The translations under genes were made by a program, and so were the position numbers. Below, piece by piece: positions 2,065 through 32,152 of a DNA stretch of 44,999 nucleotides. This DNA is from an uncultured Bacteroidales bacterium (GTDB taxonomy: Bacteria; Bacteroidota; Bacteroidia; Bacteroidales; FEN-979). The notes below the pieces were generated by a model that was not told where the DNA came from, made no database searches, and was given only the letters and a program-made list of their open reading frames with translations. Where the stretch lies: positions 1 through 44,999 of the forward strand of contig CAIQUS010000216.1 in assembly GCA_903875045.1 (NCBI GenBank). The letters are read 5' to 3'. The stretch's first letter is position 1. The number at the start of each line of letters is the position of its first letter.

Positions 2065-2433
2065 ATGAATATCAGCCCAATAAAAAACGAGATTGACTAT
2101 CGGAATGCTTTAAAACGCCTTGAAGCCATCTTTGATGCACCGATTGGAACTCCGGAAGGTGATGAAGCCGATTTGATTGGATTAATGGTGGATGAATATG
2201 AGAAAAAGCACTATCCAATCGAAGCACCTGATCCAATTGAAGCCATCAAGATCAGGATGGAGGAAATGCAATTAAAGCAAATGGATTTAGTAAATGAAAT
2301 TGGCGGAAAAAGCAGAGTTTCCGAAATATTAAACCGTAAGCGCAAATTAACTGTTGATATGATTCGTAAATTGAACAAGCGATTGAATCTTTCACCAGAA
2401 CTTTTGATTAATGACTACAAACTGACAAGGTAA
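2065..2433 (+). CDS. higA: HigA-type antitoxin with C-terminal helix-turn-helix
   Basis: 122 residues. The N-terminal half (DYRNALKRLEAIFDAPIGTPEGDEADLIGLMVDEYE) is the standard long N-terminus of HigA partners of HigB toxins. The C-terminal half (QMDLVNEIGGKSRVSEILNRKRKLTVDMIRKLN) is an XRE/Cro-type HTH domain. By family knowledge it neutralises HigB and autoregulates the operon promoter; the box at 1732-1739 would be its target region. It is co-transcribed with higB after an 11-bp gap. Confidence 0.9.
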   Translation: MNISPIKNEIDYRNALKRLEAIFDAPIGTPEGDEADLIGLMVDEYEKKHYPIEAPDPIEAIKIRMEEMQLKQMDLVNEIGGKSRVSEILNRKRKLTVDMIRKLNKRLNLSPELLINDYKLTR

Positions 2434-2626
2434 ACGACAGGTGCAATTTTATTTATCAAAACCATTTGCCTTACACAAGGGGCTCTCGCCGAACAGTTCG
2501 CCGGACAGGAATTCCTTTCATCCGGAAAAGACAAACTGTATTATTGGACAAGAAAGGCGAAAAGCAGTTATTCAGAAACGTTGTAACCCCGTTCTAAACA
2601 TCAAAGATAAAAGGCAGATGTCACCA

Positions 2627-17368: not shown

Positions 17369-17626
17369 TTGTTCACAAATAGTTTATCGTTTTGTAAAAC
17401 AAACTGTCTCATATAGTGTTGGGAAGAAGGCTGTGATTTTACGTTGATTAAAATTTAACCATTAATACGACTACAATTTAATCAAATATTATGAATAAAA
17501 TTCAAAATCTTTTAAAAAATAAATATTACTTTTGAACCATTCAATAGCACCGATACCCGGATGAAATAGTTGGGAAATAGACGAATTTTCTCAGTTTCAC
17601 AGAATTTTACGGAAATATCTGACCTC
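17369..17626. other. AT-rich upstream region of the seven-gene operon
   Basis: No gene. Holds the candidate promoter box TACTTTTG at 17527-17534, about 95 bp before the M14 carboxypeptidase start. Confidence 0.4.
17527..17534 (+). promoter_or_regulatory. -7 box of the peptide-utilisation operon
   Basis: TACTTTTG fits TAnnTTTG and precedes the first gene of the co-directional block that runs to the terminator at 29254. Confidence 0.4.
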
Positions 17627-19126
17627 ATGAAAACACCAATTGCAATTCTGATCTTGTATTTCATCCCCTTGTTTGTTTCTTCTCAGGAAATTAAATCCCC
17701 GCTTGAAAAGAGCAACTTTAGCAACCTTACATCATACAATGAATTAACATCATATATTCAATTACTTGACGCAAAATCTGATTTACTGAAAGTTGAAATC
17801 ATCGGTCAGTCAGTTGAAAAACGGAATATTTACGCGATGATGTTTTCTTCCTCACAGTTCGACAAGGACCTGTCAAAAATTAAAGTACTCATCTTTGCAC
17901 AGCAGCATGGCAATGAACAATCAGGCAAAGAGGGGGCATTGCTGCTCGCAGGGGAGTTGCTCAAACCGGAAAACAGGCCTCTTTTTAACAAAATTGATCT
18001 TGTCCTGGTTCCCCAGGTAAATCCTGATGGTTCGGAGACAAATAAAAGACGGAACGCAAATGATGCCGACCTGAACCGTAACCATCTGATCCTGAGTGAA
18101 CCTGAAACAATGGCTTTACAAAGTTTATTCAGTAAATACTGTTTTGAAGTTTCGATGGATGTACACGAATATTCACCATACGGGGAAGCATGGAAAAAAT
18201 ACGGTTACAGAAAGAATGCGGATATTACCGTAGGGGCCACAACCAATCTGAATGTTTCAGCGGAGATCAGAAAATTATCCAATGAAGATTATCTTCGTTA
18301 TATATTTAAATACCTGAGTGACCGCAAGTTTTCCTCATTTGAATATTGTCCAGGCGGACCGCCGGATGTCGAATACATCAGGCACAGTACTTTCGATATC
18401 AACGATGGCCGCCAGAGCCTTGGAATTCAAAACACTTTTTCCTTTATCCAGGAAGGCATGAACGGGAAGGATGACTCGGTTGAAAACCTTCAGCACCGGG
18501 CTAAAGGACAGATGACCGGCATGCGTGGATTGCTTGCGTATGTTTACCGGAATAAAGATCTCATCAAAGACCTCGTAATTACGGCACGAAAAAAATTAAT
18601 TTCAGGTGCTTACAGTGAAACTGTTTCTGTTCAGTCGGAACACGTCAGAAACGGAGAGAAACTTCAGATCAAACTCCTTTCTTATTATTCAGGCAATGAT
18701 TCTGTCGTAAATGTAAACGATTACCGGCCTGTCGTAAAGTCCCTGTCTGATGTAAAAAAACCGGTGGGGTATCTCATTCCCCGGAAATACACGGAACTTG
18801 GTGAATGGGCTGACAAACATTCTCTTACGCGGAGACCTTTTAAACAATCAGGAGCCTTTAAAATTGAACAATATTTCATCAATGGCATTGATTCCATCGA
18901 TTTTGAAGGGGATGTTGTTGTAAACCCTCAGACTGTTGTCAGGGAATTCCGGGAGCCTGTTTCCGACAATGATTATTTTTTCATCCCGGCGACACAGTTG
19001 AAAAGCAACATGATTGTATTGGCTCTGGAGCCAAAATCGATGCTGGGATTGGTTACTTATAAAAACTATGCCCATCTGTTGAAAAACAGGGAAGTTTTCC
19101 CCATCCTGCGGGTAATAAAAAAGTAG
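17627..19126 (+). CDS. Secreted M14 zinc carboxypeptidase
   Basis: The ATG at 17627 is chosen because it starts a clean signal peptide (MKTPIAILILYFIPLFVSSQE); the open frame further upstream is not conserved-looking. The product is 499 residues. Zinc ligands are His94 and Glu97 (QQHGNEQSGKEG) and His180 (MDVHEYSPYGEAW). The substrate-binding NPDGSETNKRRNAND.DLNRNH block and the catalytic Glu276 (FIQEGMNG) are present, so it should be active. M14 enzymes remove C-terminal amino acids or split isopeptide-like bonds in peptides. It is the first gene of the operon, 41 bp before the NSAR-like gene. In context it could trim arginine-containing peptides released by the cyanophycinases. Confidence 0.85.
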   Translation: MKTPIAILILYFIPLFVSSQEIKSPLEKSNFSNLTSYNELTSYIQLLDAKSDLLKVEIIGQSVEKRNIYAMMFSSSQFDKDLSKIKVLIFAQQHGNEQSGKEGALLLAGELLKPENRPLFNKIDLVLVPQVNPDGSETNKRRNANDADLNRNHLILSEPETMALQSLFSKYCFEVSMDVHEYSPYGEAWKKYGYRKNADITVGATTNLNVSAEIRKLSNEDYLRYIFKYLSDRKFSSFEYCPGGPPDVEYIRHSTFDINDGRQSLGIQNTFSFIQEGMNGKDDSVENLQHRAKGQMTGMRGLLAYVYRNKDLIKDLVITARKKLISGAYSETVSVQSEHVRNGEKLQIKLLSYYSGNDSVVNVNDYRPVVKSLSDVKKPVGYLIPRKYTELGEWADKHSLTRRPFKQSGAFKIEQYFINGIDSIDFEGDVVVNPQTVVREFREPVSDNDYFFIPATQLKSNMIVLALEPKSMLGLVTYKNYAHLLKNREVFPILRVIKK

Positions 19127-19167
19127 ATGATAATTTATATTTTCAGTAACTGATAAAAACCACTTCT

Positions 19168-20277
19168 ATGCGTATCGAAAAAATTGAACTTCGCCATATT
19201 AAAATGGTGTTGGTGAGCCCGTTTGTAACTTCAATGGGAACAGAATATGATGAAGAGCATATCATTGTCAGGGTTGATGCCAACGGCGTTACCGGCTGGG
19301 GAGAAAGCGTGGCTGAAGGCACCCCGTTTTACTCTTATGAAACAGTTCAGACAGCGTGGCATATTCTGCAGGATTTTTTAATTCCTTCTGTTCTGGGAAA
19401 AGACCTTGCCAACGTTGATGAGGCAATTGCCGGTTATGCAAAAGTCCGCGGTCACATGATGGCCAAGGCCGGACTGGAAGCTGCCTTGTGGGATGCGTTT
19501 GCAAAAACCCAAAACATCTCTCTTTCCAAAATGCTTGGCGGAACCCGCGAAAAAATTGATGTCGGAGTGAGCATTGGAATTCAGTCGTCTGTTGCTGAAC
19601 TTATTAAAAAGGTTGAGGGATACCTTGCTGAAGGGTACAAAAGGATTAAAATCAAAATATCCCCGGGCTATGACCTTCAATTTGTAGAAGCACTCAGAAA
19701 GGAATTTCCCAATATCTTATTACAGGTCGATGCGAACTCTGCCTATACACTGGATGATCTCAGCATTTTTAAGCGGATGGATGATTACAACCTGTTACTG
19801 ATTGAGCAGCCACTTGGTTATGAAGATATTTTCGATCATTCAAAACTGCAACGCGAACTAAAAACCCCTATTTGTCTGGATGAGAGTATTCATTCGCTTG
19901 ATGATACCCGTGCAGCCATTGAATTAGACAGTTGCCGGATCATCAATATCAAACCAGGGCGTGTGGGCGGATTCACAGAATCAAAGCTCATTCATGACTA
20001 TTGTGCCTCCATGAACATTCCGGTGTGGTGTGGCGGAATGCTTGAATCGGGAATTGGCCGGGCCGGAAATGTTGCACTGGCATCATTGTCCAATTTTACC
20101 TTGCCCGGTGACATATCGGCAACCAAAAGGTATTACAAGGAGGATATTGTTGATCCCGAATTTGTCGTCAATCCTGATGGCACCATGGATGTTCCGACCA
20201 AACCGGGAATCGGGGTTGACGTCAACATGAAAGTGCTGGAGAAGGTTACGGTGAAAAGTGAAACTTACAAAAAATGA
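19168..20277 (+). CDS. Enolase-superfamily enzyme: NSAR/o-succinylbenzoate synthase-like
   Basis: 369 residues of the muconate-lactonizing-enzyme subgroup. The capping domain contains PFVTSMGTEYDEEHIIVRV. The barrel has the acid-base pair and metal ligands: KIKISPG (first Lys pair), VDANSAY (Asp), IEQPL (Glu), CLDESI (Asp) and NIKPGRVGG (second Lys). The ESGIGRAGNVALASLSNFTLPGDI segment marks the branch shared by o-succinylbenzoate synthase (menC) and N-succinylamino acid racemase. No other menaquinone gene lies nearby, while peptidases and cyanophycinases do. Racemisation of an N-acyl amino acid or epimerisation of an isopeptide such as beta-Asp-Arg is therefore a reasonable inference. A MenC role cannot be ruled out. 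No signal peptide, so cytoplasmic. Confidence 0.82.
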   Translation: MRIEKIELRHIKMVLVSPFVTSMGTEYDEEHIIVRVDANGVTGWGESVAEGTPFYSYETVQTAWHILQDFLIPSVLGKDLANVDEAIAGYAKVRGHMMAKAGLEAALWDAFAKTQNISLSKMLGGTREKIDVGVSIGIQSSVAELIKKVEGYLAEGYKRIKIKISPGYDLQFVEALRKEFPNILLQVDANSAYTLDDLSIFKRMDDYNLLLIEQPLGYEDIFDHSKLQRELKTPICLDESIHSLDDTRAAIELDSCRIINIKPGRVGGFTESKLIHDYCASMNIPVWCGGMLESGIGRAGNVALASLSNFTLPGDISATKRYYKEDIVDPEFVVNPDGTMDVPTKPGIGVDVNMKVLEKVTVKSETYKK

Positions 20278-20367
20278 CCTTTTGTGTAAAAAAGATTATA
20301 TCTGTTGTTTTTGTGCACCCTTATTTTATAATTTCGTTATTATTTAATCATTCACGTTTTCAACACT

Positions 20368-22359
20368 ATGGTCATTACTAAAACAACACCTTTGTATTTG
20401 CCGCAAGGGTTGTTGTTTCTTTTCTTTTTATTCGGATTCACTCATCTTGCTGCACAACCCGGCCGGTTTTTGCTGGTTGGTGGCGGAAATGAAAAAAATG
20501 GAGTCGCAAGTTGGAGTACTCCGGCTTATCGCTGGGCCGGTGAAGGCAGAAAAGTAGCTATTGTAGGTTATTCGACCGGCACGCTTGCACCATATTTTAT
20601 CCAACAGTGCGGTGCACTAAGGGCAAAAGAATTTGCCATTGCCAGTTACGACAGCGCAAACAGCCAGGCGACCTATGATACACTGACCAGCTATGATGTG
20701 ATCTTCTTCAGGGGTGGCGACCAATATGATTACTACAGTTTATACCGAAACACAAAACTTCAGGAGGCTGTATATGATGTTTACATGAGGGGTGGCACCA
20801 TCTGTGGTACCTCGGCTGGCATGCACATACTTTCTTCGGTTGTTTTTACAGCAAAAAACGGAACTGCCTACCCCTATTCCTGTATTGAGAATCCTAATAA
20901 CTACTACGTTACACTTGCTGACGATTTTATGAACTTTTTCCCGGGTTTCCTGTTTGACACTCACTTTGCAGAGCGCGGGCGTTTTGGGAGGCTGGTAGGT
21001 TTTATGGCCAATTACTCACTTAATAAAGGAGAAGCTGTTACCGGGCTTGGCATGGATGACATGACTTGCATGACGGTTGATGAACAAGGTTTAGGGACTG
21101 TATATGGAACGGGATGTGCAAATCTTTATAAATCTGGCAGCAACTATTCATTGAATGGCACCAAATTGCTTGCCGATACGGTTCAAATAATTCAATTGTT
21201 GCATGGCAGTACTTTTAATTTCCAGACGGGTCAGATATCGTATGCCGGACTTGATCATCAGATGAGCACCAACGGACTTGAGGAAACAGGCAATTATACC
21301 ATTCTGGCCAGTGGAAGTAATCTTGTTTCCGATAATCAGGCCATGCTGAACGACCTGGTAAACAATTCAGGATTACAAAAAGCGGTAATACTTGTGTTAA
21401 CCGGTGATCAAAACCTGGCAGACGCCTATAAAGGCAAACTGATGGAACTGGGCGCCGAGCAAGTGAATATCTTCGTCCTGAACATGGAATATGGTAACGA
21501 CGCTGAACTTGGCAACCAAATAAACCAGGCAACAAAAATCCTGTTTTTGAAGAATTGGTTTATCTTGTTTTCCTCATTTATGTCGACTCCCAACGGTAAA
21601 TTGCTTCAGAAACAGATCAAAAGGGACAACATGATCACCGCCTTTATCGGAGAGGATGCACGACTTGCAGGAAAAACAGTTATTGACAACTACCTTGCCC
21701 TGTATGCTTCCTATTATGGTGAACTCTCATTTGGGAAAGGGCTTTCACTGCTGAATCACACGGTGCTGATGCCCGACACCTATTTGAATACAGATGTATT
21801 TGAGAACACAGCAACCGCTGTTCCTTATGCAATGGCCAGGGATAGCCTGAAATATGGAATTTGGCTTACAAACCACAATTACATGAAATACACCCCGGTG
21901 GCGGGCAAAGCCACTCTCACAGGTTATGGAACTGCGCCAGTGATGATTCTTGCCAATGCCGGAACCCAGGCAGGTTTTTCAAGCCACACTGCATCGGGCA
22001 GTACCGGCACAAAGCCTCGCATGGTGGCGGGGTTTGAACATTTGAACCTTTCACTGATCGATTACACCACCCCATATTTGATGGGCAACGTCTATTCATC
22101 CGGCATCAATACGCTCGGCAACAAGAACCCGCTGGTGATTTCACCTGATCCGGTTCAGGATGAACTGACCATGAGATGGAATTCAACCGGATATGATTGG
22201 GAAATCCTTGGTCTGCCGGGAACCCGACTCCTGAAAGGCAAGTCAGGCACCGAGCAGGAATCAGTGGATATTTCGTTGTTTAAGCCAGGAGTCTACCTGC
22301 TCAAGGTTCACAACAAAAAAAATAACGAGTCAAGGGTTTTAAAATTTGTAAAAAAATAG
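20368..22359 (+). CDS. Exported tandem S51 (cyanophycinase-family) protein with T9SS tail
   Basis: 663 residues. A signal peptide (~1-30, ending LAAQ) is followed by an active S51 domain (~32-300): RFLLVGGG, FFRGGDQ, nucleophile GTSAGM with Ser149, DTHFAERGRFGRL and LGMDDMTCM. Residues ~305-480 look like a second, degenerate S51 domain: VLTGDQ and ELGAEQVNIFVL are in place, but the nucleophile elbow reads AFIGEDARLAG and the DTHF block reads MPDTY. The end (VISPDPVQDELTMRW, then GVYLLKVHNKKNNESRVLKFVKK) is a T9SS type A sorting domain, implying secretion to the surface. Cyanophycinases cut the Asp-Arg polymer cyanophycin into beta-Asp-Arg dipeptides. Other S51 substrates remain possible. Confidence 0.8.
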   Translation: MVITKTTPLYLPQGLLFLFFLFGFTHLAAQPGRFLLVGGGNEKNGVASWSTPAYRWAGEGRKVAIVGYSTGTLAPYFIQQCGALRAKEFAIASYDSANSQATYDTLTSYDVIFFRGGDQYDYYSLYRNTKLQEAVYDVYMRGGTICGTSAGMHILSSVVFTAKNGTAYPYSCIENPNNYYVTLADDFMNFFPGFLFDTHFAERGRFGRLVGFMANYSLNKGEAVTGLGMDDMTCMTVDEQGLGTVYGTGCANLYKSGSNYSLNGTKLLADTVQIIQLLHGSTFNFQTGQISYAGLDHQMSTNGLEETGNYTILASGSNLVSDNQAMLNDLVNNSGLQKAVILVLTGDQNLADAYKGKLMELGAEQVNIFVLNMEYGNDAELGNQINQATKILFLKNWFILFSSFMSTPNGKLLQKQIKRDNMITAFIGEDARLAGKTVIDNYLALYASYYGELSFGKGLSLLNHTVLMPDTYLNTDVFENTATAVPYAMARDSLKYGIWLTNHNYMKYTPVAGKATLTGYGTAPVMILANAGTQAGFSSHTASGSTGTKPRMVAGFEHLNLSLIDYTTPYLMGNVYSSGINTLGNKNPLVISPDPVQDELTMRWNSTGYDWEILGLPGTRLLKGKSGTEQESVDISLFKPGVYLLKVHNKKNNESRVLKFVKK

Positions 22360-22385
22360 GCATTTAACACCGCACCCCCTTCCCC

Positions 22386-22401
22386 CTCTCCCAAAGGAGA
22401 G
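22386..22401 (+). other. Intercistronic hairpin
   Basis: CTCTCC-CAAA-GGAGAG, a 6-bp perfect stem without a T-tract, in the 71-bp gap between the two S51 genes. It may stabilise or attenuate the operon mRNA. Confidence 0.4.
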
Positions 22402-22430
22402 TGGATGATGGGAGAACTTAATGACACAAT

Positions 22431-23711
22431 ATGAACAAATTACGAACATTGCTGGTCGGCACAATATTTTTAATCTCATCTGTTTCAAACAGTCAGACGC
22501 CTTCAAAGGGAAGTCTTGTGATCGTGGGAGGCGGACTTGAAGCCAGCAACAAAAGTATTTTCAACCAGATGATCGACCTTTCGGGAGGAACCGATAAGGC
22601 TGTCTTTGCCGTCATCCCGTCGGCAGGAGGCGCACCCGTTCAGTCGTTCATGTATTTCAGAAGTGAATTGATTTCTTACGGTGTAAAACCCGAAAACATC
22701 CACCTGATCCCTGTGGCACTGATGGACGATGACAGTACCAAGGTTGTCAATGAATCAGCGTGGAAAGATAACGGGAATAATCCCCGATTGGCCAAAATGG
22801 TCAGGGAATGTTCTGCAGTATGGTTTACGGGCGGTGACCAGTTACGTACCATGAAAACATTGATCAGACCAGATGGAAGTAAAACGCCAGTGCTGGAGGC
22901 CGTATGGGATGTATTCAACGCGGGAGGTGTTGTTGGCGGAACAAGTGCCGGCGCTGCCATCATGAGTGAAGCCATGATTGCCGGAGGCAATAGTATTGGT
23001 GCGCTCACCCATGGCGTGGTAACAGGATATGAGGGAGATGATTTTCCGGAGAGTGATGGCGTTCTGATGACAAAAGGGCTGGGATTTTTTCCGCTGGGAA
23101 TTGTTGATCAGCATTTCAATAAAAGAGCCAGGATCGGACGACTTGCCGTAGCCCTTATGCATGAGAAGCCAAGGTTTAATTTGGGATTTGGTGTAGATGA
23201 AAACACAGCCCTTATTTATATCGGAAGTAAAAACCTGGTGAAAGTGGCCGGTGCTGCAGGGGTTACCCTGATTAATGCTTCTAATGCACGGATTTCATAC
23301 GTACAGAACCTCCCGGAAATCGAAAACCTCGTGGTGAGTTATCTTGACGAAGGCGATTCATATAATATTTCAACCGGAATCATTATGCCTGCCGATGATA
23401 AAAAACCCACCGGTGGCAAGGAATATTATCATATTAAAAATCCAGGACAAGCTGGAATATTGTCAGGTTATTCCAATAGTTTCCAGGACCTTATTACTGT
23501 CAACCTGATTGACAACAAAGATGCCGATACCATTCACAATCTCAGTTTTTACAATCAAGATTCCGGATTTCTGGTCACATTGTGCAAAACATCACAAAGT
23601 GCAGGTTTTCATGTTGAACGTCCCGTGGAAGGGGACAAATATACTGCAACCGGCATCAGGATGGATATCATCCCTGTTCATATCTCCGTAACACCCATGA
23701 TAGATAAATAA
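22431..23711 (+). CDS. Exported cyanophycinase (peptidase S51)
   Basis: 426 residues with a signal peptide (MNKLRTLLVGTIFLISSVSNSQ). One complete S51 domain: GSLVIVGGGLE, IPSAGG, YGVKPENIHLIPV, VWFTGGDQLR, nucleophile VGGTSAGAA with Ser172, VDQHFNKRARIGRL and GFGVDENTALI. This is closer to canonical CphB/CphE cyanophycinases than the preceding gene. A C-terminal ~100-residue extension (SYLDEGDSYNISTG... to IPVHISVTPMIDK) carries no T9SS signal, so it is probably periplasmic. It would hydrolyse cyanophycin or its fragments to beta-Asp-Arg. susC follows after 18 bp, placing both cyanophycinases in one transcript with the uptake genes. Confidence 0.85.
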   Translation: MNKLRTLLVGTIFLISSVSNSQTPSKGSLVIVGGGLEASNKSIFNQMIDLSGGTDKAVFAVIPSAGGAPVQSFMYFRSELISYGVKPENIHLIPVALMDDDSTKVVNESAWKDNGNNPRLAKMVRECSAVWFTGGDQLRTMKTLIRPDGSKTPVLEAVWDVFNAGGVVGGTSAGAAIMSEAMIAGGNSIGALTHGVVTGYEGDDFPESDGVLMTKGLGFFPLGIVDQHFNKRARIGRLAVALMHEKPRFNLGFGVDENTALIYIGSKNLVKVAGAAGVTLINASNARISYVQNLPEIENLVVSYLDEGDSYNISTGIIMPADDKKPTGGKEYYHIKNPGQAGILSGYSNSFQDLITVNLIDNKDADTIHNLSFYNQDSGFLVTLCKTSQSAGFHVERPVEGDKYTATGIRMDIIPVHISVTPMIDK

Positions 23712-23729
23712 TAACCAAACTTTGACTGT

Positions 23730-26639
23730 ATGAAAAAACATTATTTTTTGCTTTTATTGTTCGGGTTGCTTCTCCGGCAACTGGCCGCACAGGAGATCCC
23801 CGTGAGCGGAATCATCCTTTCTTCTGATGATAATTCACCCATTCCGGGAGTTACCGTCCTGATCAAAGGGACCTCACAAGGAACCACCTCCAACCTCAAC
23901 GGGAAATATTCATTGCTGGCGCCTCCAAACGGGGTCTTGCTTTTTTCCTTTGTAGGCATGCAAACCCAGGAAATACCTGTGAACAACCACAAAATAATCA
24001 ATGTCAAACTGACCGACCAGGACATACCACTTGGCGAGTTGGTTGTGGTAGGCTACAGCACCACAAGTAAGAAACTCCTCTCGGGAGCAATTGAGGTGGT
24101 GAATAATGAAGAGATCAAAAACATACCCATCCGCACCCTTGAAGGTGTGCTTCAGGGTCAAACGGCCGGACTCGCCATCAACATGCAGTCGGGTACCCCT
24201 GGTGGTCAGAATGTAATGAAACTCAGGGGCGGAAGTTCAATCAATGCAAGCAATGCACCCCTGATCGTCATCGACGGGATCCCTGCGATTACCGGGCAGT
24301 ATTCTCAGGTGGGTATGAGCGGGCAGGAACTCAACGCCATGACCGATATAAATCCCAATGATGTTGAATCGATGACCATTTTAAAGGATGCATCCGCCAC
24401 ATCGGTTTACGGTGCACGTGCTTCCAACGGGGTTATCCTGATCACAACCAAGAAAGGAAACCGCGATAAAACGGATGTGTCGCTGAACCTCAGCTATGGA
24501 TGGCAGACCCTGCCAAAAAACAGGATTATCCCAATGATGAGCGCTTCCGACTGGAATGCTTACAAGGGAACCAATGTACAGGGGATCAATACCAACTGGA
24601 TGGATGAAATCCTGATCACCGCACCTACCGCAAACACGGAACTCTCGGTCAGCAGCGGAAGTGATAAATTCAGGCTCTTCATCTCAGGAAACTATTATGA
24701 CCAGGGTGGTGTTGTGATGGGATCATCGTATCAGCGTTACAACGGACGGTTGAATGCGGACTACAAGATTCTGCCCAATCTGACCTTTGGCGGCGGGGTT
24801 TCAATGACTTACTCAAAAAACGCCAGGGTTGAAGGAGATGCTACACTTAACGGCCCCTTGCCTAATGCCATGTCGATTCCGGCAATTTTTCCTGTATATG
24901 ATTCAACTGGTGCTTATGATGAATCCATGTTTTATGCGAATCCGGTGGCCATTGCCAAAAATTCCATTAACTATGCATACACCAACCGTACCGCCGGAAA
25001 TGCTTACCTCGAATATAAATTTTTAAATGGTTTTACATTTACCTCCAAAATCGGGATCGATATATACAATCTCAGGGAGCACAGTTACGACCCTACAACC
25101 ACCCGTCAGGGTAAAAAATACAATGGTCTGGGCATTGAAGGAACAAGTTATGCCAGCAACCTCACCACCAACAATGTGCTCCAATACATCAATGAATTTG
25201 ACAAAAAGCACAACATTGACATCCTTATCGGTCACAGTTTTGAGAAATATGCCAGCCGGACCACTTACATCGAAGGAATAAACTTCCCGAATGACGAACT
25301 TCAGTATCTTACTTCGGCCGGCACCATCCGTGCTGCTTCAGCGAGAGCCCTCGACCGTGTGTTGAATTCGTACTTCGGACAAGCCAAATACAATTACAAG
25401 TACAAATACATCTTCACTTTCACGATCAGGGCTGATGGTTCCTCGAAATTCGGCAAGAATAACCAGTACGGGTATTTCCCTTCGGGTTCATTTGCCTGGC
25501 GTATGTCGGAAGAACCTTTCCTGAAAAAGGTGAAATGGATCAATGAACTGAAAATCAGGGCGATTTGTGGAGCCACCGGAAATGACGGCATTGGTGATTT
25601 TGGCTACCTTGGCCTATATGGTGGCGGGTATAATTATGGAGGTGGTGCCGGTATCGCACCTTACAAATTACCCAATCCGGACCTGAAGTGGGAATCAACG
25701 ATCCAAACGGGACTGGGATTTGATTTGTCGGTATTAAAAAACAGGATCAACCTTAATTTTGATGTATATTACAACCACACCAACGACCTGCTTCTCGACA
25801 GACCCCTTCCTTCCTCATCCGGTTACTACAGCATCGCAGCCAACATCGGGCAACTTGAAAACAAAGGGCTCGAAGTCGTGCTGAATACGGTAAATATCGA
25901 TAAGGCATTCACCTGGACCTCTTCCCTCAATTTTGCCATGAACCGGAACAAAGTGCTGAGCCTTTATAATGATCAGCCGATTGACGACATGGGACGTGGC
26001 GGAAACCGCGTTGAGGTAGGTCAGCCAATCGGGATCTTTTATGGCTACAATTGCCTTGGCGTCGACCCCACAACAGGGAACCTCGTGTATGAGGATATCA
26101 ACCATGATGGCGCCATTACCTCTGCCGACCGCATGAAAACAGGCGATCCGAATCCTGATTTCACCACGGGATTTACCAATGTATTTGGCTTTTTCAACTT
26201 CGAACTCTCTGTTTTTCTGCAAGGGGTGTACGGAAACGACATATTTAACGGAACGTATATCTACCTCGAGTCGGGCACCGGCGAAGACAACCAGACGGCA
26301 CGCATGAACGGTCGCTGGAAGAAACCGGGAGATATCACACAATTTCCAAAGGTTGGTGATTCATATAAGTCATCCAGGTTTATTGAAGATGGTTCTTTCA
26401 TCAGGGTGAAAAATATCACCCTGAGTTATAATTTCAGGAAGGACTGGCTTAAAAAGATCGGGATGAAGTCGGCCAAAATATACGGTACCGTGCAAAACCT
26501 GTTCACCTTTACCAACTATACCGGTATGGACCCCGAAGTAAACTACTATGGAGGATCGAGCAATATCATCCAGGGGACAGACTTTTTCACCTATCCGCAA
26601 TCGCGTACCCTCCTGATTGGCCTTACCCTTATTTTTTAA
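23730..26639 (+). CDS. susC: SusC-type TonB-dependent outer-membrane transporter
   Basis: 969 residues. Signal peptide (MKKHYFLLLLFGLLLRQLAAQ), carboxypeptidase-regulatory-like domain (~22-105: VSGIILSSDDNSPIPGVTVLIKGT...GTTSNLNGKYSL), plug (~115-230: NVMKLRGGSSINASNAPLIVIDGIP, ATSVYGARASNGVILITTKKG) and a long beta-barrel ending in SRTLLIGLTLIF with the terminal aromatic residue. It imports an oligomer bound by the SusD partner, powered by TonB-ExbBD. The adjacent cyanophycinases suggest the cargo is a peptide rather than a glycan; no glycoside hydrolase is present in the block. Confidence 0.95.
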   Translation: MKKHYFLLLLFGLLLRQLAAQEIPVSGIILSSDDNSPIPGVTVLIKGTSQGTTSNLNGKYSLLAPPNGVLLFSFVGMQTQEIPVNNHKIINVKLTDQDIPLGELVVVGYSTTSKKLLSGAIEVVNNEEIKNIPIRTLEGVLQGQTAGLAINMQSGTPGGQNVMKLRGGSSINASNAPLIVIDGIPAITGQYSQVGMSGQELNAMTDINPNDVESMTILKDASATSVYGARASNGVILITTKKGNRDKTDVSLNLSYGWQTLPKNRIIPMMSASDWNAYKGTNVQGINTNWMDEILITAPTANTELSVSSGSDKFRLFISGNYYDQGGVVMGSSYQRYNGRLNADYKILPNLTFGGGVSMTYSKNARVEGDATLNGPLPNAMSIPAIFPVYDSTGAYDESMFYANPVAIAKNSINYAYTNRTAGNAYLEYKFLNGFTFTSKIGIDIYNLREHSYDPTTTRQGKKYNGLGIEGTSYASNLTTNNVLQYINEFDKKHNIDILIGHSFEKYASRTTYIEGINFPNDELQYLTSAGTIRAASARALDRVLNSYFGQAKYNYKYKYIFTFTIRADGSSKFGKNNQYGYFPSGSFAWRMSEEPFLKKVKWINELKIRAICGATGNDGIGDFGYLGLYGGGYNYGGGAGIAPYKLPNPDLKWESTIQTGLGFDLSVLKNRINLNFDVYYNHTNDLLLDRPLPSSSGYYSIAANIGQLENKGLEVVLNTVNIDKAFTWTSSLNFAMNRNKVLSLYNDQPIDDMGRGGNRVEVGQPIGIFYGYNCLGVDPTTGNLVYEDINHDGAITSADRMKTGDPNPDFTTGFTNVFGFFNFELSVFLQGVYGNDIFNGTYIYLESGTGEDNQTARMNGRWKKPGDITQFPKVGDSYKSSRFIEDGSFIRVKNITLSYNFRKDWLKKIGMKSAKIYGTVQNLFTFTNYTGMDPEVNYYGGSSNIIQGTDFFTYPQSRTLLIGLTLIF

Positions 26640-26657
26640 CCTTAAACTCTGAACAAG

Positions 26658-27992
26658 ATGAAAAAAATATCCTACATATTGCTTGTCATCGCGCTTGCTG
26701 CGATGTCGTGCACCAAGATGCTTGACGTTCAGCCTACAGATGCCATCTCGGCCGATGTAGCCTTCAAAGACAAAGCCGGGGTTGACAAAGCCGTCACCGG
26801 AGCCTATAATTCCCTTCATGATGCAGGCAACTACGGGCGCAACCAGGTCATCGTTGAAGACCTTGCAGCCGATAATCTCGCCTGGACCGGTACGACCCGC
26901 GAATACATGCAGATAGCCGAAAACAATATTGCTGCCGACAATGCCATTATTGATGGTTTATGGGCATCCAATTATGATTGCATCAACAGGGTCAACAATA
27001 TACTCTTTCGTATTGCCAACATAGACATGACGCTATCCGAAAGAAATACCTACACCGGTGACGGACTATTTCTACGTGCATTGTCACATTACAACCTTTT
27101 ATGTTATTTTGGCGGCATTCCGGTTAAAACCAAACCAACCCTCGACCTTGGTATGATCAACCAGGCACGCAATTCGGTTGCCGAAGTTTATACCCAAATT
27201 ATTGCTGATCTTTTGCAGGCAGAAACAATCCTTCCTGCCACGAGACCATTGGGATGGGCCAGTTCCTTCAGTGCAAAAGCGCTGCTTGCAAGGGTTTACC
27301 TTGCACAATTTCAATCCACAGGCGATCCGGCCATTGCAGTTCTTGCCAAAACCAAGGCAGATGAAGTAATCAACAATGGCGGGTTTACCCTTGCCCCCGC
27401 CTATTCCGACCTGTTCAACGGGAATACCAGCGAATCCATTTTTGAAGTTGTATTTGATGCCCAGAATTATAACCGGCTGGCCCAGTATTTCTTCCCTGTG
27501 AGCCTTACCGGCCGGTATGAGGTTTCGCCTCCAGCCGCCTTTATCCAAAGTTTCCAGGCTACCGACACCACCAGGTTTGATGCTTCCATCACCTTTGATG
27601 AGAAGAATCTGCCTTATGGAATCAAATACAAAGACTACACATCCGGAACCGACCGGGTTTATGTGCTGCGTCTTGCTGAAATGTACATGATCCGCGCCGA
27701 AGCCCTGGCTTATACAGATGGGAATATTGAGGACATCAGAAGCGATATCAACACATTGCGAACTCGCGCAGGGTTGCCGGCAACAACAGCTACCAACATC
27801 CCGGAACTTAAGCTGGCAATTGAGAATGAACGCAGACATGAGTTTGCTTTTGAAAGCCAGCGTTGGTCTGACCTTGTCAGAACAAAAAGAGCCACCACCG
27901 TACTTGGAATCGATGAGAAATTCACGCTCTTTCCAATACCCCTCAGTGAACTTCAAACAAACAATCTGATGACCCAAAATCCCGGATATTGA
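26658..27992 (+). CDS. susD: SusD/RagB-family substrate-binding lipoprotein
   Basis: 444 residues. Lipoprotein signal with MSC site (ALAAMSCTKMLDVQP), then the SusD fold: TDAISADVAFKDKAGVDKAVTGAYNSL, the TPR-like GDGLFLRALSHYNLLCYFGGIPV, AKALLARVYLAQ, and the C-terminal ERRHEFAFESQRWSDLVRTKRA...FPIPLSEL. It forms the lid of the SusC transporter on the cell surface. At 444 residues it is shorter than many glycan SusDs (500-600), similar to RagB-like peptide-binding members, which fits a peptide cargo but does not prove it. Confidence 0.95.
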   Translation: MKKISYILLVIALAAMSCTKMLDVQPTDAISADVAFKDKAGVDKAVTGAYNSLHDAGNYGRNQVIVEDLAADNLAWTGTTREYMQIAENNIAADNAIIDGLWASNYDCINRVNNILFRIANIDMTLSERNTYTGDGLFLRALSHYNLLCYFGGIPVKTKPTLDLGMINQARNSVAEVYTQIIADLLQAETILPATRPLGWASSFSAKALLARVYLAQFQSTGDPAIAVLAKTKADEVINNGGFTLAPAYSDLFNGNTSESIFEVVFDAQNYNRLAQYFFPVSLTGRYEVSPPAAFIQSFQATDTTRFDASITFDEKNLPYGIKYKDYTSGTDRVYVLRLAEMYMIRAEALAYTDGNIEDIRSDINTLRTRAGLPATTATNIPELKLAIENERRHEFAFESQRWSDLVRTKRATTVLGIDEKFTLFPIPLSELQTNNLMTQNPGY

Positions 27993-28021
27993 TCATTTCT
28001 CAACCTGTAAATGTAAAAATC

Positions 28022-29221
28022 ATGAAAAGAAATCTGTTATATTTAGTCTCTGTGTTGTTCATCCTGAATTTGGGAACCGGATGCAAAGAGAAGGACATGG
28101 GCACACCGGCTGCCAGCACCGTGGCCAGTTTCAGTTATGTTATCACGAACCAGGGATACTCGCCGTGTGAAGTGGCGTTTACCAATTCATCGTTAAATGC
28201 TGCGGGATATTTGTGGGATTTCGGAAACGGACTCACCTCAACAGAAGCCAATCCCACCACGACCTACGCAACACCAGGATTATACAATGTCAAACTCACC
28301 TGCACCCCGGTAAACACCTTGTATTACAATCAGACGGTTAAAACGCTGGTTGTGAATGTAAAAGATCCACTTGGAGGCCTTACCCAGGTTTTTTACTATA
28401 CCTCCCGGGGAACAGTAGGAAATGGTCATCTTGTCATACTGGATGATGCTCCCCCGCTGATCCAGAATTTTGTCGAAGCAGACCTGTCGAGACCTTACGG
28501 AATTGCAGTTGATACTGCCCATAAAAAAGTATATATAACTGATTATTCGAATCAGGCCATTTACCGCTACGATGCAGATGGGAAGAATGTCCAGAAGATT
28601 CTTGATGCCAAGGTTGCCGGACAGGAATTCGTTGGAGATGCTGAAGCAATTTTCGTTCTCGGGGATAAAATTTACTGGGGACGCACAGGAGGCATTTACA
28701 AAGCCAACCTTGATGGCTCTAATCCTGAAGTACATATTGATTTTGGTGCCGGACCGCCCGAATACCCCATTGATATGCAATACGACCCTGCCACCAATAA
28801 AATTTACTTTGTCAATGATAAAACTGATTACACTGGCGGATTCTGGTCGGTAAACCTTGATGGGTCAAGCATGACTGAAATTATTCCGGATGTTGACGGT
28901 ACAGCACTTGAAATGGATTTCAGGAATGGTAAAGCTTACCTGGTGCTTTATGGTTCTGCAGGGACTGTTGCCCCCGAAAATGGCGTTTTTATGTGTAATT
29001 TGGATGGAACCGGCGTTACCAAAATCGGAGATTATGGCCTCAAAGCAACCTGGGGTATCACCATCGATGAAAAGCGGAACAAGCTACTGTGGGGGTATAA
29101 AATCTCAAACTCGGCACCTGACGGGAAAATAATCCGGGCAAACCTCGACGGATCCTCTCCGGAAGACTGGATTACAGGTGTAAGCCCACATGCCATGCAG
29201 GTGGTTTGGATAAAACTTTAA
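28022..29221 (+). CDS. Surface lipoprotein with PKD domain and beta-propeller
   Basis: The ATG at 28022 gives MKRNLLYLVSVLFILNLGTGCKEK, a lipoprotein signal; an in-frame start 11 codons earlier overlaps susD and is unlikely. The product is 399 residues. Residues ~30-115 form a PKD domain (PCEVAFTNSSLNAAGYLWDFGNG...TPGLYNVKLTC). The rest is a YWTD/NHL-like propeller with repeated blades of the type KVYITDYSNQAIYRYDADG and KIYWGRTGGIYKANLDGS. It sits where SusE/F-type accessory lipoproteins lie, directly after susD and before the operon terminator, so it probably binds the substrate or scaffolds the complex at the surface. Confidence 0.8.
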   Translation: MKRNLLYLVSVLFILNLGTGCKEKDMGTPAASTVASFSYVITNQGYSPCEVAFTNSSLNAAGYLWDFGNGLTSTEANPTTTYATPGLYNVKLTCTPVNTLYYNQTVKTLVVNVKDPLGGLTQVFYYTSRGTVGNGHLVILDDAPPLIQNFVEADLSRPYGIAVDTAHKKVYITDYSNQAIYRYDADGKNVQKILDAKVAGQEFVGDAEAIFVLGDKIYWGRTGGIYKANLDGSNPEVHIDFGAGPPEYPIDMQYDPATNKIYFVNDKTDYTGGFWSVNLDGSSMTEIIPDVDGTALEMDFRNGKAYLVLYGSAGTVAPENGVFMCNLDGTGVTKIGDYGLKATWGITIDEKRNKLLWGYKISNSAPDGKIIRANLDGSSPEDWITGVSPHAMQVVWIKL

Positions 29222-29228
29222 TTCGCGG

Positions 29229-29246
29229 CAGGTGACACCACCTGGC
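29229..29246. other. Small hairpin before the operon terminator
   Basis: CAGGTG-ACAC-CACCTG, a 6-bp perfect stem just after the lipoprotein stop codon and upstream of the main terminator. Confidence 0.4.
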
Positions 29247-29253
29247 AACCCAT

Positions 29254-29286
29254 AAAAAAAGCCGTCTGAAAGGACGGCTTTTTTTT
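29254..29286. terminator. Bidirectional terminator closing the operon
   Basis: A run of A, stem GCCGTC-TGAAAG-GACGGC, then a run of eight T. The A and T tracts make it functional for both the operon (+) and the convergent T9SS protein gene (-). Confidence 0.9.
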
Positions 29287-29306
29287 ATGACCTTTATTGT
29301 AAACAC

Positions 29307-30407
29307 CTATTTGACTAACATCATTTTCCTTGATGTAACCTGATCGCCACATCTGAGGGTATAGTAATAGACACCAGCAGGCAGATCTTTTGCATTGAAA
29401 TTGACACTGTGTGTACCCCTTGTTTGATTTGCATTTTCCAAAGTAGCCACTTCGCTCCCGATCACATTGTAAACCTTTAAACTTACAAACCCGCCATCAG
29501 GGATATAATAATTAATGGTCGTTGAATGACCAAACGGGTTTGGCGCATTTTGCCCGAGATTGAATTCATTTTTGGCAGATTTTATATCGTCAACGGAAGT
29601 GATCAAAGCCTGATATTTCGTTTCTGCGGCTAAAATGTTGGATAACATGGTTTGTTCATCTGCACCGAGCGCCAATGCGTAATACACATTAAATGATCCC
29701 CCCGGAGCCAGAACCACCGGCATCTGCGCAGTGATTGTAACAGGTCCATCAACGGTTGTCGAAGTATATTGAGGTTGCAGTGCACCATGATTCATCCAGT
29801 TCCATAAACTGGTATCAACAGAATAGCCATCATACCATTCAAAGGAATAGAGGGATGACAATGAAGATGAGAGAAGTTTCATTCCCATATTTACCTGATT
29901 GCCCCTGTGAAACCTTATAACGTCCGCTGCACTGTTGTATGTTACTGTATCAAATCCATACTCCTGATTGATTTCAGGAATGATATCCAAACCTGCTGAG
30001 GCATTCATGGCATCCGTTTGCATATTTTTGATATTGAACCTGACAATGGTAAAACTTGCGTTGGTCCAGCCGTAAGCGTTCAATTTTACATTTACAGCAG
30101 GGGGTAATCCTGAGTAAGAATTGTCGTAGGCATCATAATTTTCAAAATCACTCTTTGTCGGGTTGGCGACCAATACCGTTGGTTCCAGTTGCTCAGAGTC
30201 ATTTGTGTAGTCAAATACGGATGTCGGGGAAGTTTCAACCAAAATCGATGCACGTTGCAAATGTCTGATGGCATCAGGTGTATACAAACGGATTCTGCCA
30301 TACTGGTTTACATCAACCTCGAGGGCACCTGTGGTAAAAGAGGCCTGGGAATAACCATCCGCAATGGCCATCAGTACAACTGCCATAATGAGTAAAGTTT
30401 TTTTCAT
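29307..30407 (-). CDS. Secreted protein with T9SS type A sorting domain
   Basis: 366 residues. Signal peptide (MKKTLLIMAVVLMAIADGYSQ). The central ~250 residues contain a beta-rich region (FTTGALEVDVNQYGRIRLYTPDAIRHLQRASILVET, APGGSFNVYYALALGA) that I do not assign to a family. The C-terminus LGQNAPNPFGHSTTINYYIP...GSEVATL...GVYYYTLRCGDQVTSRKMMLVK is a textbook T9SS sorting domain, so it is exported and anchored on or released from the cell surface. It converges with the operon and may share its regulation, but no enzymatic role is visible. Confidence 0.85.
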   Translation of the reverse strand: MKKTLLIMAVVLMAIADGYSQASFTTGALEVDVNQYGRIRLYTPDAIRHLQRASILVETSPTSVFDYTNDSEQLEPTVLVANPTKSDFENYDAYDNSYSGLPPAVNVKLNAYGWTNASFTIVRFNIKNMQTDAMNASAGLDIIPEINQEYGFDTVTYNSAADVIRFHRGNQVNMGMKLLSSSLSSLYSFEWYDGYSVDTSLWNWMNHGALQPQYTSTTVDGPVTITAQMPVVLAPGGSFNVYYALALGADEQTMLSNILAAETKYQALITSVDDIKSAKNEFNLGQNAPNPFGHSTTINYYIPDGGFVSLKVYNVIGSEVATLENANQTRGTHSVNFNAKDLPAGVYYYTLRCGDQVTSRKMMLVK

Positions 30408-30550: not shown

Positions 30551-32152
30551 ATGTCAAAAAAAGTAAAGATACCCCACACCTATGTCATCGTCTTCTTTAT
30601 TATCATAATCGCAGGAATATTGACCTGGATTATTCCCGGTGGCACTTTTATACGTGAGACCATTACCGTTAACGGGATTGATCGCGAAGTAGTTAAAAGC
30701 AACAGTTTTCATTATATCGGAAATTCTCCTCAAACCTGGCAAATCTTTTCTGCTATTTTTGACGGATTTGTTGACAAAGCCAATATCATTGTTTTCATCC
30801 TGCTCATCGGAGGAGCCTTTTGGATCATGAACCAGACGAAATCGATCGATATCGGAATTTATGCATTTCTCCGTTACACGAAAAAAATCGGGAATAACCG
30901 GGTCATGAAATACCTTGGGATAGATAATCTCATTATCGTACTGATCATGTTAATATTCAGTATTTTCGGAGCGGTATTCGGTATGAGTGAAGAGACCATT
31001 GCATTTACAATCATATTTATTCCGCTTGCCATAAGGATGGGTTACGATTCGATTACCGGAGTATGCATGTGTTATGTTGGCGCCCACCTCGGTTTCGCAG
31101 GGGCTCTGCTCAATCCCTTTACCATTGGTATCGCGCAAGGATTGTCGAAATTGCCGCTGTTCTCCGGGATCGAGTACAGGCTGTTCTGCTGGGTCGTTAT
31201 CACTGTCACAGGAATCGCATTTGTTCTATGGTATGCCAATAAAATCAGAAAAAAACCAAAATCATCCTATGTTTATGAAGAGGATGCTTACTGGAGGGAA
31301 CACACCAGTAAAGACGAATTGACCATTGAATACCATACCCCGACATCCGCCTGGTTTGTATTCGGGGCCATCCAGATTGTTTTAATCATCTTTTCCATTT
31401 TCTATCCGCTTACAAACCTTAGGATTGGACTTTCAAGCATCATCATACCGATCCTTCCCATTCTTGCTGCCATGTTTCTGGTATCAAGCCTTTTGTTATT
31501 AAGAAAATCGGTCCATTTTTTCATCCTCAATCTTTTCTTTTTTACGATTGCCTTTCTCATCGTAGGTGTAATGGGTTATCAATGGTATGTCATGGAAATT
31601 GCTACCCTCTTCTTTGTCATGGGCATATCTTCCGGGCTTGCCATGAATTACAGCCTGAATACCATCACAAATTACTTTCTTGATGGGGCCCGTGATATCC
31701 TTTCAGCCGGGATCATCGTTGGCTTGGCCGGAGGGATTATCATCATCCTGAAAAACGGACAAGTGATTGACACCCTGCTCTACTATGTGGCAGGCTCCAT
31801 GAACAACCTGGGAAACTATGCGACAATCAGCATCATGTATGTGATCCAAACCGGCATCAATCTGATCATGCCATCCGGTTCGGCCAAGGCAGCGCTCACC
31901 ATGCCCATCATGTCACAGTTTTCCGACCTCATCGGTGTTTCCAGACAGGCAACTGTGATGGCCTATCAGTTTGGGGATGGTTTTACCAATATGCTCACTC
32001 CAACATCCGGTGTACTGATGGGTGTGCTCGGAGTATCACGCATACCTTATGATAAATGGCTTAAGTGGATCGCTCCCCTGATGTTGATTTTGTTCGTCCT
32101 TGGTTTTCTGCTACTTATCCCAACAGTAACCATGAAACTGAACGGTTTCTGA
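30551..32152 (+). CDS. YfcC-family amino acid/peptide transporter
   Basis: 533 residues with about 12 membrane helices. The N-terminus PHTYVIVFFIIIIAGILTWIIPGGTF is the YfcC/ArcD-like signature. Other landmarks are GAFWIMNQTKSIDIGI, FGMSEETIAFTIIFIPLAIRMGYDSITG, GAHLGFAGALLNPFTIGIAQGL, MPSGSAKAALTMPIMSQFSDLIGVSRQ and DGFTNMLTPTSGVLMGVLG. The family includes basic amino acid exchangers and short peptide/C4-dicarboxylate carriers of the inner membrane. It follows the peptide-utilisation operon by ~1.3 kb (with the T9SS gene between) and could move arginine, ornithine or Asp-Arg dipeptides. Substrate is inferred from context only. Confidence 0.85.
   Translation: MSKKVKIPHTYVIVFFIIIIAGILTWIIPGGTFIRETITVNGIDREVVKSNSFHYIGNSPQTWQIFSAIFDGFVDKANIIVFILLIGGAFWIMNQTKSIDIGIYAFLRYTKKIGNNRVMKYLGIDNLIIVLIMLIFSIFGAVFGMSEETIAFTIIFIPLAIRMGYDSITGVCMCYVGAHLGFAGALLNPFTIGIAQGLSKLPLFSGIEYRLFCWVVITVTGIAFVLWYANKIRKKPKSSYVYEEDAYWREHTSKDELTIEYHTPTSAWFVFGAIQIVLIIFSIFYPLTNLRIGLSSIIIPILPILAAMFLVSSLLLLRKSVHFFILNLFFFTIAFLIVGVMGYQWYVMEIATLFFVMGISSGLAMNYSLNTITNYFLDGARDILSAGIIVGLAGGIIIILKNGQVIDTLLYYVAGSMNNLGNYATISIMYVIQTGINLIMPSGSAKAALTMPIMSQFSDLIGVSRQATVMAYQFGDGFTNMLTPTSGVLMGVLGVSRIPYDKWLKWIAPLMLILFVLGFLLLIPTVTMKLNGF

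Follow-up and report, generated by a model that had tools for sequence, protein, structure and literature searches.

A cluster of seven genes in an uncultured Bacteroidales bacterium is probably a SusCD-type variant of the known cyanophycin utilization loci, working like them in an organism that seemingly does not make cyanophycin. The cluster lies in a 44,999-nucleotide stretch of DNA (the window) that is the entire contig C216 of the host genome (5.96 Mb, 99.1% complete, 253 contigs). It is called a variant because those loci include iadA, the isoaspartyl dipeptidase gene, which the cluster here lacks. All seven genes are open and co-directional on the forward strand (17627–29221), with intergenic gaps of, in order, 41, 90, 71, 18, 18 and 29 bp when ATG starts are assumed at 17627 and 28022. 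These genes and a nearby transporter gene are as follows.

17627–19126, forward: predicted exported M14 zinc carboxypeptidase, 499 aa (PF00246, E=3.7e-22; signal-like N-terminus by eye)
19168–20277, forward: NSAR/OSBS-family enzyme, 369 aa, without a signal-like N-terminus (TIGR01928, 381.3 bits; cut-off 200.65)
20368–22359, forward: S51A, cyanophycinase-family protein, 663 aa, with a signal-like N-terminus and a type IX secretion C-terminal domain (profile matches, alignment, Foldseek)
22431–23711, forward: S51B, predicted exported cyanophycinase-family protein, CphE-sized, 426 aa (TIGR02069, 169.3 bits; six pocket residues)
23730–26639, forward: SusC/RagA-type TonB-dependent outer membrane transporter (TIGR04056, 829.5 bits)
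26658–27992, forward: SusD/RagB-type surface lipoprotein (PF14322, PF07980; lipobox-like AMSC by eye)
28022–29221, forward: PKD-domain lipoprotein, possibly with a beta-propeller (PF18911, E=3.2e-9; lipobox-like GTGC by eye)
30551–32152, forward: DcuC/YfcC-family inner-membrane transporter (PF03606, 345.6 bits; YfcC model 383.5 bits, under its cut-off of 500)

The adjacent SusC and SusD genes have the arrangement of a SusCD transport system. Two S51 genes stand beside this pair with the DcuC gene nearby, and this clustering of S51 genes with a transporter is a mark of cyanophycin utilization loci. An earlier note on this DNA had described a co-directional seven-gene block with short gaps and a single strong terminator, a description that profile searches, the gap count and hairpin folding confirmed. 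Its inventory of seven genes was correct but overlooked the type IX sorting tail of S51A, the DcuC transporter and iadA. Of the PKD/propeller lipoprotein that it listed, the PKD domain was recovered; the propeller is weakly supported by a sub-threshold match (DUF5050, 23.9 bits; cut-off 27).

Pocket residues and tree position, and for S51B the profile score, support the assignment of S51A and S51B as putative cyanophycinases. The residues reported as critical in Synechocystis CphB are Gln101, Asp172, Gln173, Arg178, Arg180 and Arg183 (PMC3235067). In an alignment of 30 sequences numbered on CphB, which did not include the CphE sequence itself (JN620418), S51B has all six of these residues and S51A has five, the sixth (position 173) being Thr198, as in CphE. 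The nucleophile Ser132 (in GxSxG) and His174 are also kept, as S149/H199 in S51A and S172/H228 in S51B. The TIGR02069 score of S51B is above the equivalog cut-off of 126.6, and S51A exceeds the cut-off of PF03575 (27.1 bits; cut-off 23.9). A third S51 protein of the genome (contig C31) is PepE-like and differs at positions 101, 172, 173 and 178. In the tree, S51A and S51B fall with Synechocystis CphB and proteobacterial CphE-sized proteins, apart from this PepE-like protein; the branch to that outgroup is very long (6.2), 3en0 (CphB) is the one member that counts as verified, and the grouping does not prove function. Separation of the S51 proteins from cyanophycinases, which the earlier note had named as a result that would speak against its proposal, was not seen. 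The AlphaFold model of S51A (pLDDT 89.6) matched CphB structures and type IX C-terminal domains in Foldseek.

The extracellular CphE of Pseudomonas alcaligenes DIP1, encoded by a 1260 bp gene with a signal peptide (PMC3235067), is like S51B in size, in the Ser and His, and in the pocket residues, and S51A shares the CphE Thr at CphB position 173. S51A differs from CphE by an Asp at the proposed catalytic Glu, and the available part of that source describes neither a SusCD pair nor a type IX tail for CphE. A second S51 domain within S51A was considered and is not supported: comparison of residues 295–575 with residues 30–285 gave a profile probability of 1% (E 0.052). This middle region (residues ~290–575, window 21235–22092) is well predicted and has no family match.

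The two S51 proteins differ in their likely destination. The type IX tail of S51A scores 23.4 bits with TIGR04183 (cut-off 23) and 25.7 with the Pfam sorting model, just under the cut-off of 27, and the host genome encodes the type IX core protein SprA (2585.5 bits). S51A thus combines a C-terminal sorting domain with SprA in the same genome, as expected of a type IX substrate, its signal peptide being judged by eye only. S51B and M14 have signal-like N-termini alone, again by eye. These features suggest that S51A is probably located at the cell surface and S51B in the periplasm.

In the proposed pathway, S51A, secreted by the type IX system, would shorten cyanophycin at the cell surface. Oligomers or beta-Asp-Arg would be captured there by SusD and the PKD lipoprotein and imported by SusC with TonB energy, and periplasmic S51B would complete the release of beta-Asp-Arg. 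Periplasmic M14 may take residues off the C-terminus or cleave the isopeptide bond. The dipeptide, or amino acids, would then cross the inner membrane by way of the DcuC-family carrier, and cytoplasmic IadA, encoded outside the locus, would yield Asp and Arg. From sequence we infer what the substrate is, where each protein resides, how material is transported and each reaction of the pathway. If the pathway is correct, SusCD-type uptake, usually linked to glycans, extends to a major cyanobacterial nitrogen reserve, and the S51 pair, SusCD, iadA, DcuC, M14 and NSAR form a marker set with which environmental genomes could be searched for recyclers of cyanophycin nitrogen.

IadA splits beta-aspartyl dipeptides. 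The host iadA gene (445.8 bits) is on contig C163 with an M28 peptidase gene beside it, the pair occupying positions 2201–4923 of locus L061. Relatives keep both genes inside the locus, where iadA, often accompanied by the M28 gene, runs in the reverse direction and separates NSAR from the S51 genes; NSAR and S51A are 90 bp apart here. Host IadA shares 72–75% identity with the copies in the loci of the six nearest genomes. The most parsimonious explanation is a move of the iadA–M28 pair. The host genome also encodes one Asparaginase_2 protein. No cyanophycin synthetase scored over the cut-off of 850 in this 99.1% complete genome (best 71.6 bits), and for this reason the host looks like a consumer of cyanophycin and not a producer.

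Conservation of the locus was assessed in two samples. Among 295 genomes of the order, 25 including the host had an S51B match at E<=1e-20. The surroundings of S51B in 20 of the other 24 held a homologous SusC (49–72% identity) in 10 and none in the remaining 10, one of which had a weak 25% match. In a scan of genome contigs, the best 80 of 461 S51B relatives were used, several of them from the same genomes as the order sample. Locus genes were identified with blastp (1e-10), taking the window proteins as reference and, for IadA and M28, the relatives' copies, a threshold that remoter homologues could escape, and since many contigs stop inside the locus, the per-gene counts are lower bounds. 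The 40 close loci (S51B identity at least 43%) had SusC in 36, directly 3' of S51B within 250 bp in 35, and IadA in 34. SusD and the PKD protein were found in 32 each, S51A and M28 in 20 each, M14 and the protein with a type IX tail in 17 each, DcuC in 16 and NSAR in 14. The close loci without SusC are L097, L099, L101 and L102. Among the 40 remote loci (<43%), DcuC was present in 21, IadA in 9, S51A in 5, SusC in 1, and M14 and NSAR in none. Across the 80 loci, the SusCD form was seen on Bacteroidota-titled contigs only, and the pairing of cyanophycinase with DcuC extends to Proteobacteria. Nearly all of the close relatives are titled as uncultured Bacteroidales or Bacteroidetes, and three of these titles name 'LacPavin'; L099 is titled Clostridiales. 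One scan of viral contigs found no viral copies. Two remoter SusCD–cyanophycinase loci (L045, 1430–3202; L048, 984–2776) are preceded by look-alikes of extracytoplasmic function sigma and anti-sigma genes, by eye, and none was seen in the window locus. The same gene order in other Bacteroidota, for which the earlier note had proposed a search, is therefore conserved, usually with iadA. Together with the pocket residues and the grouping with CphB, this conserved order supports on genomic grounds the dedicated cyanophycin-uptake locus that the note had proposed.

The first gene of the cluster encodes an M14 protein in which H94, E97, N150, R151, H180 and E276, which we take to be functional residues, are invariant in 16/16 aligned sequences. 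Its model has a pLDDT of 78.4, with residues 241–264 poorly predicted, and carboxypeptidases were its nearest structures in Foldseek. The score with the AstE/AspA-like subfamily model PF24827 was 19.6 bits, under the cut-off of 25, in a comparison that did not contain assayed members. From these matches, the protein looks like a classical carboxypeptidase and not like the aspartoacylase-type cyanophycin dipeptide hydrolase, an isoaspartyl dipeptidase annotated as M14/aspartoacylase (cited in PMC10206079). Both are M14-type metallopeptidases tied to cyanophycin genes. The isoaspartyl dipeptidase or dipeptidases of Firmicutes and Bacteroidota are described as still undiscovered (PMC10206079), and the window M14 is a candidate for the missing enzyme of Bacteroidota, especially in G224, a genome described below. 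M14 was rejected as an exclusive marker of the locus: 10 of the 19 matched genomes (295 scanned) have remote matches at 35–41% identity, and 9 of these 10 have no other query gene in the fetched DNA. The tenth, G294, has a cluster of SusC, SusD, S51 (141.4 bits, over the cyanophycinase cut-off) and M14 (L215, 318–8963) with no NSAR hit.

The second gene encodes an enzyme whose best PDB matches are NSAR/OSBS enzymes, with a full-length match to 1sja. Its K163 and K262 (presumably the two catalytic lysines) and D188, E213 and D238 (presumably the three metal ligands) are invariant in 16/16 sequences. These catalytic residues are common to 1sja, from which the window enzyme differs by its setting beside S51, M14 and DcuC genes. 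It is the sole MR_MLE_C match of the host genome. At E<=1e-60, NSAR was found in 8 of the 295 genomes of the order, seven of which have the S51B locus, the eighth being G224; the overlap gives p=1.8e-12 if genomes are assumed to be independent, which they are not. In this sample NSAR adjoins M14 in 8/8 genomes, with a cyanophycinase-family gene in the same stretch in 6/8; two of the loci, those of G179 and G075, are broken by contig ends, across which the link between NSAR and cyanophycinase was inferred. In G224, which belongs to another family, the end of a SusC gene, SusD, a lipoprotein, an M20 peptidase, S51, DcuC, M14 and NSAR follow in a row. Its S51 protein scores 156.1 bits, over the cyanophycinase cut-off, and the genome has no IadA match at 1e-60. 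This locus (L155, 1–14152) includes a choice-of-anchor-J protein, its M20 peptidase is PepT-like, and a second SusCD pair adjoins it on the opposite strand.

At the level of the phylum, 29 of 395 genomes, host included, had an NSAR match. Context was retrieved for 16 of the other 28, the remaining twelve being weaker matches (36–47% identity). M14 was present in the fetched DNA of 10/16, an S51A-type gene with cyanophycinase motifs in 6/16, and neither in 6/16, these last being G303, G651 and G559 (76–80% identity) and three genomes at 49–53%. In G300, related at the phylum level only, S51A, M14, NSAR, DcuC and an Asparaginase_2 gene lie together. The idea that NSAR marks cyanophycin loci exclusively fits 8/8 genomes of the order, two of them by inference, and was rejected on the phylum sample. 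NSAR accompanies M14 more than it accompanies cyanophycinase. In other Bacteroidota, M14 and NSAR are joined by a saccharopine-dehydrogenase-like gene (L193, 9270–10421, by Pfam; L190, 9188–10324, and L192, 4357–6512, by eye), and L192 also has a pyridoxal phosphate enzyme near the D-cysteine desulfhydrase family. These neighbours may hint at the handling of D-amino acids.

A tentative proposal, which we hold to be improbable on present evidence, is that M14 and NSAR together form a new branch in the use of isoaspartyl polymers, in which M14 would be one of the isoaspartyl dipeptidases still missing in Bacteroidota and NSAR would epimerise beta-aspartyl amino acids. Epimerisation of such dipeptides by NSAR would be chemically plausible because beta-Asp-Arg is N-succinyl-Arg with one extra amino group, and an N-succinyl-amino-acid racemase would be an obvious point of departure for this activity. 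If the proposal is correct, these bacteria would encounter beta-aspartyl compounds in which residues are D-configured or racemised. M14 and NSAR would be two named candidates for gaps in the Bacteroidota pathway.

Several observations weigh against the cyanophycin reading. The proposed catalytic Glu of CphB and CphE (Glu251 in the latter) aligns to Glu257 in S51B and to Asp in S51A (Asp231) and its orthologues. S51A scores 89.5 bits with TIGR02069, under the cut-off. The two exported S51 proteins of the earlier note are both of the cyanophycinase family, S51B over this cut-off and S51A under it. The closest PDB relative in sequence, 7uqv, has all of the tested residues yet is titled 'pseudo-CphB', and the residues are therefore no proof of activity. 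An isoaspartyl dipeptidase gene, which cyanophycin utilization loci include, is absent from the cluster, iadA being unlinked here. S51B is patchy in the order, since the three sampled genomes from the host's own family lack an S51B match, and IadA matches 48/295 genomes as against 25/295 for S51B. The breakdown of cyanophycin in two steps does not account for M14 and NSAR, and the substrate might therefore be a different isoaspartyl compound. The locus might instead import isoaspartyl-rich or general peptides from dead biomass, with exported S51, M14 and M28 exopeptidases producing dipeptides and IadA and NSAR handling those that are beta-linked or epimerised. The co-occurrence of these three exopeptidase families in relatives agrees with such a role, as does a racemase suited to epimerised residues. 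However, both S51 proteins have the Arg178/180/183 cyanophycinase pocket and S51B is over the cyanophycinase model cut-off, and import of such peptides is an unlikely explanation.

That the NSAR gene is the genome's menaquinone o-succinylbenzoate synthase, unrelated to the locus, is slightly less likely still. The score over the cut-off of TIGR01928, an OSBS model, and the lack of another MR_MLE_C match in the genome are what such a gene would give, and G303, G651 and G559 carry it with no M14 or S51 in the fetched DNA. However, at E<=0.001 three genomes from the host's family lack any MR_MLE_C match, and both the position beside M14 and cyanophycinase-family genes in the order sample and the overlap with S51B loci, with its assumption of independence, speak for a role in the locus. 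SusCD pairs usually serve glycans, and an ordinary glycan utilization locus with incidental peptidases would account for the transporter; nevertheless, the peptidases are kept together with SusCD in different families, and no glycoside hydrolase family was found among nine scanned proteins, as the earlier note had argued from the absence of such enzymes. This very improbable explanation was rejected on the latter result. The cyanophycin reading remains the preferred one.

Citromicrobium is an Alphaproteobacterium, and one of its strains offers a parallel to the window in an outer membrane transporter predicted for cyanophycin. In Citromicrobium sp. JLT1363, cyanophycin was predicted in 2012 as the substrate of a TonB-dependent transporter whose gene is near a cyanophycinase gene (PMC3400609); the available part of that source names no SusD, M14 or racemase. 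The novelty of a cyanophycin locus was overstated by the earlier note, since a Bacteroidetes strain is already cited for a cyanophycin utilization locus that comprises cyanophycinases, iadA and a transporter (Ben Hania et al. 2017, via PMC10206079). In that locus, of strain L21-Spi-D4, iadA is in the cluster, whereas it is on another contig in the window genome. Of the two S51 proteins of the strain studied in PMC6243061, one has a Por secretion domain and the other has none, as in Salinivirga cyanobacteriivorans, which belongs to the 2017 citation too; S51A and S51B differ in the same way. In the open-licence literature, cyanophycinase and SusD are mentioned together for Dyadobacter genomes, one of them also with a cyanophycin synthase. 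Nothing there joined cyanophycin, isoaspartyl and racemase, absence in that literature being weak evidence; for the NSAR residues it offered one unrelated paper, and the available parts of PMC10100682 and PMC12590107 name no such locus. The M14–NSAR module, which adjoins cyanophycinase-family genes in a number of Bacteroidota lineages but not everywhere it occurs, may be new.

Three further features border the cluster.

17527–17534, forward: candidate -7 promoter element TAnnTTTG (exact match, ~90 bp 5' of the M14 ATG)
29251–29289, forward: intrinsic terminator hairpin with T-tract (fold -20.8 kcal/mol, z -4.62)
29307–30407, reverse: protein with a type IX sorting tail (TIGR04183, 39.8 bits)

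TAnnTTTG, which we take to be the Bacteroidota -7 box, occurs across the window at chance frequency (42 found vs 37.8 expected). The terminator hairpin was not among the results of a consensus terminator scan. The earlier note had proposed a single operon; the gene block is confirmed, and a single transcript is in doubt, since iadA splits M14–NSAR from the S51 genes in relatives. Because iadA, often with M28, sits there on the opposite strand, M14–NSAR and the genes from S51A to the PKD lipoprotein may form two transcription units.

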